Source: a virus | Length of the DNA stretch: 20,433 nucleotides | Virus record (IMG/VR): IMGVR_UViG_3300011258_000957 | Coordinates: 1-20,433 of that record | Strand: one strand, 5' to 3' | Shown: piece after piece, positions 787-19,591 of the stretch | Layout: each line of letters opens with the position of its first letter | Position numbering within the stretch: position 1 is the first letter of the stretch | Translations under genes and position numbers: made by a program | Notes under the pieces: generated by a model | Told to the model about the DNA's origin: nothing | The model's input: the letters and a program-made list of their open reading frames with translations, nothing else | The model's database searches: none

Positions 787-798
787 TTGGATATCGTC

Positions 799-837
799 GG
801 CGGGCTGATCAATTGGAGCAAACCAGCCCGCCATTTT
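799..837 (+). terminator. Hairpin with short T tract (terminator or leader hairpin)
   Basis: GGCGGGCTG at 799-807 pairs perfectly with CAGCCCGCC at 824-832 around a 16-base loop, and ATTTT follows. It could end transcription coming from ssb. Because it lies just after the promoter at 758-786, it would also be the first structure in transcripts from that promoter. It may therefore act as an attenuator or a protective 5' stem. The T tract is short and the loop is longer than in typical terminators. Confidence 0.5.
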
Positions 838-18151: not shown

Positions 18152-19108
18152 ATGGCACAGCCAGCCAACACGTTCGACAGTTACGATCAAGTCGGGATTC
18201 GCGAGGATTTGAGCGATGTGATCCACAACATTTCACCGGAGGAGACGCCGTTTTACACAGCTTGCGTCAAGACCTCGGCTGAAAATACATATGCTGAACA
18301 TCAAACCGAGGCTTTGCGGGCGTCGGCAGACAATAAGCATATCGAGGGCGACGACACGACGGCAAGCGCGGTCACGCCAACAACGCGGCTTGGAAATTAC
18401 ACCCAAATTTTCAAAAACGCCGTCATCACAACCGGCACGGACAAGGGCTTGAAGAAAGCTGGGCGCGGTCGCGAAATGGCGCGCCAGATCGTCAAGGCCG
18501 CAAAAGAGCAAAAACTGGACATTGAAAAGGCGCTGTTTGCAAATAATGCGCGCGTAGCTGGCAACAGCACCACCGCCCGCGAATTGGCTGGGGCGCCAGC
18601 TTGGTTGATTTCCAACGTTGATTTTGTCAGCGCAAGCTCTGGCGCAAATCCAACCGGGGACGGCACGGACGCGCGCACAGATAGCGGCGCCCCCACTGCA
18701 TTTACTCAGACAAAGTTTAATTCGGTTATGCAGTCTATTTGGACTAGCGGCGGCAAGCCTGACGTTTGCTATCTTAGCTCGTTTCAAATGAATGTGGCGC
18801 AGGGCTTCACCGGGAACAACGCGCAGCGCGCGACGATCGGCGCAGAGCAAAATAAAGTTGTTGACTTTATGTCCGTCTACGTCACGCCGTGGGGTACTGT
18901 TAAATTTGTTCCTACGCGGGAAAACCGGAGCCGTGACGTGTTTATCATGCAATCGGACATGTGGGCGGTTCCAACCTTGCGCGCGACTAAAACGGAGGCG
19001 TTGGCTAAGACTGGCGACAATGACAAGCGCCAAGTCGTTACGGAGTTGACGCTGCACTGTTTGAACGAGGCCGCGTCTGGTATCGTTGCTGATAACAGCA
19101 CGTCGTAA
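18152..19108 (+). CDS. Major capsid protein (DUF5309 / SU10-like, HK97 fold)
   Basis: This 318-residue protein opens with AQPANTFDSYDQVGIREDLS, then DVIHNISPEETPF, the signature start of the DUF5309 capsid family, in which a short N-terminal arm precedes the HK97-type core. Further family phrases are IFKNAVITTGTDKGLKKAGR and AEQNKVVDFMSVYVTPWGTV, with the final strand RDVFIMQSDMWAVPTLR. It forms the icosahedral shell. The binding site AGGAAA (18141-18146) lies a suitable distance before the ATG, and the gene is separated from scaffold by nine bases. The gene ends just before a strong hairpin. Confidence 0.93.
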   Translation: MAQPANTFDSYDQVGIREDLSDVIHNISPEETPFYTACVKTSAENTYAEHQTEALRASADNKHIEGDDTTASAVTPTTRLGNYTQIFKNAVITTGTDKGLKKAGRGREMARQIVKAAKEQKLDIEKALFANNARVAGNSTTARELAGAPAWLISNVDFVSASSGANPTGDGTDARTDSGAPTAFTQTKFNSVMQSIWTSGGKPDVCYLSSFQMNVAQGFTGNNAQRATIGAEQNKVVDFMSVYVTPWGTVKFVPTRENRSRDVFIMQSDMWAVPTLRATKTEALAKTGDNDKRQVVTELTLHCLNEAASGIVADNSTS

Positions 19109-19115
19109 AGTTAGG

Positions 19116-19140
19116 GCGGGGGCAATGCCCCCGCTTTATT
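19116..19140 (+). terminator. Hairpin terminator after the capsid gene, with a competing arm
   Basis: GCGGGGGC (19116-19123) pairs perfectly with GCCCCCGC (19127-19134) across a 3-base AAT loop, and TTTATT follows. This is a Rho-independent terminator with a weak T tract. A third arm, GTGGGGGC (19145-19152), can pair with the same GCCCCCGC with one G-U pair and a 10-base loop. That pairing would cover the ribosome binding site of the gene at 19156. Confidence 0.75.
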
Positions 19141-19155
19141 CCAAGTGGGGGCTTT

Positions 19156-19437
19156 ATGAGTAAAGTTGAATTTCGCGTTACGTGCGCAGGCATGTTTGTT
19201 GACGGTCGGTTGCTTAAAAAAGGTGAAACTTTTTTTTGGGATTTGGAAACGGCAGAAAACCAGCGATCTATTAAACCGCATTTGACATTTGAAAGGGCCG
19301 CAAATGAAAACGCAACAGCGAATACTGGACCAAGACGGCAAAATAATAATCCACCAGCGGCACGATGTGACGGGGATGTTGGGCTTGACGGCAGCAATGC
19401 GAAACGAAAGCCGGGGCGACCTAGGAAAAGAAAATAA
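19156..19437 (+). CDS. Small protein with AT-hook-like basic end
   Basis: This 93-residue protein has the G-rich binding site GGGGG (19147-19151) just upstream. Residues 1-50 form a small beta-type domain (VEFRVTCAGMFVDGRLLKKG, then ETFFWDLE), similar in style to small phage proteins placed after the capsid gene. Residues 50-80 are Asn/Ala-rich, and the end KPGRPRKRK resembles an AT-hook (G-R-P core) that binds the minor groove of DNA. Its last 134 bases also code, in another frame, for the N-terminus of the protein at 19304. Function is unknown; a head-completion or DNA-contacting role is possible. Confidence 0.65.
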   Translation: MSKVEFRVTCAGMFVDGRLLKKGETFFWDLETAENQRSIKPHLTFERAANENATANTGPRRQNNNPPAARCDGDVGLDGSNAKRKPGRPRKRK

Positions 19438-19591
19438 ATTAGCGGCCAATGTCCCAATGAAGTTGTTTTACGAATGGGCGAAAAAATGGGGCGTTAATTA
19501 TAACGATTCAGACGCAATGCAGGATGTGCTTGCGCGCGAATTGAACGACAGCAACAACGCGCATTTGCGCGTATGGACAGGGGACTTTTAA
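19304..19591 (+). CDS. Conserved-type small phage protein overlapping the previous gene
   Basis: This 95-residue protein starts at the ATG at 19304 with GAAAGGG (19291-19297) six bases upstream, inside the preceding gene but in the +1 frame. The C-terminal half (KLFYEWAKKWGVNYNDSDAM, then QDVLARELNDSNNAHLRVWT) resembles a short phage protein family with a W-x-x-K-W-G-V segment and an E-L-N-D end. The N-terminal part (GKIIIHQRHDVTGMLG) also looks family-like. It is polar and probably cytoplasmic or virion-associated; the role is not known. The frame is supported by its own binding site and by the TAATG junction to the next gene. Confidence 0.7.
   Translation: MKTQQRILDQDGKIIIHQRHDVTGMLGLTAAMRNESRGDLGKENKLAANVPMKLFYEWAKKWGVNYNDSDAMQDVLARELNDSNNAHLRVWTGDF

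Follow-up and report, generated by a model that had tools for sequence, protein, structure and literature searches.

A terminator-type hairpin that follows the SU10-type major capsid gene in a phage, and the match between its 3' arm and the next ribosome binding site

Background

In the virus described here the major capsid gene is followed at once by three neighbouring RNA arms, the second of which could pair with either the first or the third. The question is whether they constitute a regulatory switch or a simple hairpin followed by a ribosome binding site. The initial annotation proposed a terminator combined with a switch in which pairing of arms 2 and 3 would hide the binding site of the next gene. 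As will be seen, the terminator-type hairpin stands, the switch is not supported since the 2-3 pairing is not kept, and the evidence agrees best with the fallback offered at the same time, in which a simple terminator happens to be followed by a G-rich site.

The virus and the features of the locus

The window, by which we mean the whole stretch of DNA that was analysed, is a virus record of 20433 bases. A second contig represents the same virus (99.98% identity over 14638 bases) and is identical in the post-capsid stretch. Among named viruses the closest is Octadecabacter Antarctic DB virus 2, with 68.7% identity in the capsid protein; the available part of its description makes it a podovirus and predicts a P22-like neck (PMC9239159). 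The features discussed below are:

18152..19108, + strand: major capsid protein gene (SU10_MCP / phrog_1328; Pfam PF17236, E 6e-82; PHROG 1328, E 2e-85), stop codon TAA at 19106-19108
19112..19138, + strand: terminator-type hairpin of 12 pairs with the 3-base loop AAU; core of 8 G-C pairs, 19116-19123 / 19127-19134; -21.8 kcal/mol
19135..19142, + strand: U-rich tail past the G-C core, UUUAUUCC, 5 U of 8, interrupted
19145..19152, + strand: arm 3, the G-rich Shine-Dalgarno (SD)-like site of the next gene; anti-SD duplex -8.4 kcal/mol
19156..19437, + strand: downstream gene for a small protein of 93 aa, with homologues in the same position in relatives

The gene before the element had been called the capsid gene, and the SU10_MCP and phrog_1328 matches agree. 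The arms had been placed correctly as well, arm 1 being GCGGGGGC (19116-19123), arm 2 GCCCCCGC (19127-19134) and arm 3 GTGGGGGC (19145-19152), and the anti-SD duplex together with the homologues of the ORF bears out the description of arm 3 as the G-rich binding site of the gene at 19156. A Pfam search with the 93-aa protein gave nothing above the cut-off, and no sigma-70-like sites were listed by a consensus scan of the + strand from 17167 to the capsid gene.

The hairpin in the window

Arms 1 and 2 extend to 12 pairs (19112-19123 with 19127-19138), and the hairpin starts 3 bases past the capsid stop codon. Its stem is G+C-rich and stable, as that of an intrinsic terminator should be, with the core of eight G-C pairs and a predicted energy of -21.8 kcal/mol for the hairpin alone (19109-19139). 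In the predicted fold of 19100-19170 the core pairs have probabilities of 0.985 or more, and this segment is more stable than its own shuffles (z -3.5, with 2 of 200 shuffles equally good). The 1-2 helix is still favoured over the 2-3 helix in predictions at 4, 15 and 25 C, and when folding of the growing chain is considered arm 3 is made only after 1-2 is already complete. No other + strand hairpin of the whole window is as strong, and its core is found once there (expectation 0.21, with up to 3 mismatches). The site of the tail also appears in the list from a terminator consensus scan, which yields no more sites than shuffles do. A known RNA family for the element was rejected on the basis of 0 Rfam matches in the window at gathering score (4227 families scanned).

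The hairpin among relatives

The family set comprised the window, relatives from two capsid scans (best 80 of 598 and best 80 of 596 matches, the scans sharing some contigs) and further loci, seven of which were added by genome contigs. The window's own copies were excluded, and so was L086. Of 169 sequences 166 were usable, L017 (too short), L079 (no stop) and L170 (N) being dropped, and these gave 73 distinct post-capsid stretches, from the window and from relatives 44-76% identical to it in the capsid protein; all 73 entered the counts, and part of them were also read by eye. Statistics on arms and leaders refer to 67 of the 73: the best gapless hairpin was weaker than -9 kcal/mol in L008, L009, L050, L061 and L125, and L126 has no ATG start.

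Among the matches listed, 68 of the 73 distinct sequences carry, within the first 75 bases, a gapless hairpin at least as stable as -12 kcal/mol. Shuffles reached this threshold in 21 of 1460 cases, and stretches from inside the capsid gene in 2 of 292. With the leader present the hairpin has a probability above 0.9 in 67/67. There are 54 distinct pairs of stem arms among these 67 sequences, and this variation amounts to compensatory change across the family. The hairpin is missing from three of the 73 (L009, L050, L061), in which the next gene comes directly; L008 has a long-loop G-first hairpin and L125, by eye, one whose loop is likewise long but whose 5' arm is C-rich. As a separate observation, the post-capsid hairpins are polar, with more G than C in the 5' arm in 66/67 and CCCC in the 5' arm in 0/67; L125, outside the 67, is by eye an exception, and the control for this polarity is limited to 5 other U-tailed hairpins.

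The base composition after the stem bears on what the hairpin does. Instead of being an intrinsic terminator, it could mainly protect the 3' end of the mRNA or act as a barrier to processing, and its retention despite a poor U tail in seven members (at most 2 U among the 8 bases past the core, for example L148, L133 and L147) is in keeping with that; given these seven and the interrupted tail of the window, intrinsic termination may not apply to every member. However, at least 4 U of 8 follow directly after the core in 52 of the 67, which is what a terminator requires, and the two roles are mutually compatible. We consider it unlikely that protection is the main role.

Arm 3 and the alternative helix in the window

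The pairing of arms 2 and 3 is present as it had been described (eight pairs, one of them G-U, and a 10-base loop), and the helix in fact reaches 10 pairs (19127-19136 with 19143-19152, 6-base loop). Such a match is uncommon for a single leader, yet this one was singled out for being striking. Composition-preserving shuffles of the leader (n=20000) gave at least 8 contiguous pairs in 107 cases and 10 pairs in none; exchanging arms and leaders between family members gave at least 10 pairs in 11 of 4422 combinations, a swap rate at which, by our own arithmetic, at least one such match would arise by chance among 67 members with a probability of about 15%.

On its own the 2-3 helix (19127-19158) is predicted at -19.4 kcal/mol, versus -21.8 for 1-2. 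The proposal that it forms as an alternative helix is not upheld by the fold of 19100-19170, in which its predicted occupancy is 7e-5 versus at least 0.985 for the 1-2 core. With arm 1 forced unpaired to 19118 or 19120 the predicted probability of 2-3 becomes 0.72 or 0.9994. The two mutually exclusive helices are thus in workable balance only with arm 1 held unpaired, and not in free RNA.

It had further been supposed that pairing 1-2 leaves the binding site free. The predicted fold does not leave it simply free: with 1-2 formed, the SD is unpaired with a probability of 0.44 and the AUG with one of 0.001, the start codon being engaged in a helix with the end of the capsid gene around its stop. 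This second helix, 19103-19111 with the next start at 19151-19159, belongs to the minimum-energy fold and might itself be regulatory: ribosomes translating the end of the capsid gene would open the next start, giving translational coupling, and with bases to 19112 held unpaired the predicted unpaired probability of the AUG rises from 0.001 to about 0.72. The helix is specific to the window, however, which has the top pairing sum (7.92) in a family where the mean is 0.73 and only 8 of 67 members exceed 2, and we regard such coupling as quite improbable.

Arm 3 across relatives

A switch used throughout the family would keep arms 2 and 3 complementary. For the 67 sequences having a hairpin and a start codon, the pairing of every 3' arm was computed both against its own leader and against the leaders of all the others. 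The mean energy was -5.15 kcal/mol for own leaders versus -5.50 for swaps (-4.91 versus -5.39 with the window removed), and in 0.9975 of 2000 permutations the pairing equalled or exceeded the real one in strength. Own pairing is thus weaker than that of swaps, which argues against a kept 2-3 helix, where the opposite sign is expected. The window's own match (-20.7) ranks 1 of 67, followed by L064 (-13.7) and L164 (-13.3), and is an outlier, not a family trait. Since 0 of 4422 swaps reach this energy, chance is not the sole possible reading of it. The window leader contains a run of five G and would therefore match most C-rich 3' arms of the family; against the 66 other arms its mean is -12.5, with eight arms at -16 or better and five at -18 or better. 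L152, which has the identical stem core GCGGGGGC, carries the site AAGGAG.

A degenerate pattern for the downstream gene, RVTCxGMF, retrieved 10 stretches, one from the same virus and nine that were analysed separately from the 73. What these nine nearest downstream-gene relatives have in common is the stem GGGGCGGC / GUCGCCCC, in some cases as a variant, together with the site AAGGGGUGA or AAGAGGUGA. Arm 2 can form 6-9 contiguous pairs with the SD region in 7/9 and only five in L178 and L181, and helix 2-3 is interrupted in two of the nine. The longer pairings in the seven count against a match by chance alone. Seven rows are distinct. In these, helix 1-2 is intact throughout (100% of pairs) and one pair has changed on both sides, a result equalled by 71/500 shuffles, so that this small set says little by itself; helix 2-3 is 87.5% paired, with three of its eight pairs broken in some rows, none changed on both sides and 500/500 shuffles equal. 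The sites of these relatives look like a lengthened complement to the 16S end, with anti-SD duplexes of -11.7 to -14.9, and this accounts for their form without a switch.

The expectation that all three arms covary in related phages is therefore not borne out for 2-3, for which the swap test is negative and no compensatory change is seen; relatives retain the hairpin but not arm 3 as its pairing partner. On these grounds, and with the helix interrupted in two of nine, a family-wide switch was rejected. Closer relatives were sought by the scaffold protein (the same virus and one 25% match), by the downstream protein and by the exact hairpin (the same virus only), and by DNA comparison with phage records, where a single record matched, in its capsid gene alone. 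As no sequence was found between identity and about 76% capsid identity, arm 3 is not traceable step by step.

A switch confined to this virus would have to be gated by the ribosome, which at the capsid stop would cover the base of arm 1 and so release arm 2 to pair with arm 3, with the next site hidden as a result. The energies of the two helices taken alone, the response of 2-3 to an unpaired arm 1 and the first rank of the match are in favour of this. Against it, the 2-3 helix is neither kept in the family nor accompanied by compensatory changes, the hairpin occurs in a single further record, which belongs to the same virus, so that selection is not indicated, and the ribosome footprint on the capsid stop is an assumed one; we therefore think it very improbable. 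Equally doubtful is a lineage-specific three-state switch built from the post-capsid terminator, in which 1-2 and the stop-start helix would hide the start when no ribosome is present, a ribosome nearing the capsid stop would open the start, and a ribosome on the stop would cover arm 1, so that 2-3 would form, the terminator would be lost and the binding site hidden; if real, such a device would sense capsid translation in a compact way.

The trp- and erm-type systems are familiar examples of translation-sensitive attenuators and SD-sequestering leaders. Exclusive pairings of neighbouring arms can likewise be drawn in the window, and its predicted fold flips with arm 1 unpaired; unlike those systems, the window has no known stalling leader peptide, kept alternative helix or compensatory change.

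Probable reading: a terminator and an ordinary ribosome binding site

The element is best explained, with a probability of roughly 0.8, as an intrinsic-terminator-type hairpin right behind the major capsid gene, arm 3 being an ordinary ribosome binding site. A hairpin occupies this position across the family with varying stems, and no 2-3 pairing is kept with it; termination, its efficiency and its effect on stoichiometry are what we infer from that. The complementarity of arms 2 and 3 follows from a G-rich site lying opposite the C-rich 3' arm used by the family, and is most likely a chance complement. A striking three-arm match can thus come about when the 3' arm of a conserved terminator is rich in C and the ribosome binding site opposite it rich in G. 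Claims of this kind have a simple control, the exchange of arms and leaders among related phages.

The hairpin is best read as a terminator, perhaps a leaky one, that separates capsid from downstream expression. A fraction of the polymerases would stop at the hairpin, giving an excess of capsid mRNA with a protected 3' end, and the remainder would read through into the small downstream genes. T7 reportedly has a terminator directly behind its capsid gene. In the available part of the LUZ100 description, capsid expression appears to be governed by a promoter close by and by a strong terminator right behind the gene, as in T7 (PMC10134795); this was the one direct precedent found in the partly available literature on terminators behind capsid genes or on such switches. 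The likeness to LUZ100 and T7 lies in the site directly after the capsid gene and in the presumed role, capsid above downstream genes (PMC10134795, as far as its available text goes); the difference is that the window belongs to another phage group, with an SU10-type capsid, and that its terminator is a predicted one. The conserved hairpin suggests that SU10-type-capsid phages commonly put a terminator directly behind the capsid gene, like T7-like phages.

Other observations

The strongest - strand hairpin in the window (798-833, -22.8 kcal/mol) lies between the SSB gene (280-750) and an ORF listed at 836. The first post-capsid ORF of Octadecabacter Antarctic DB virus 2 (MW805364; L082:4010-4279) is unannotated, and gp27 of that record has a later start, in the overlapping frame. 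The downstream ORF of the window (19156-19437) shares 134 bases (19304-19437), out of frame, with the next ORF (19304-19591, phrog_3982). The overlap is also 134 bases in L082, L088, L090 and L094, 140 in L164/L150, 113 in L171, 167-170 in L101/L104/L112, 233 in L140 and only 11-14 in L002/L122/L042. Differences within it among four relatives fall mostly at third positions of the second ORF, so that the second frame looks to be the constrained one.
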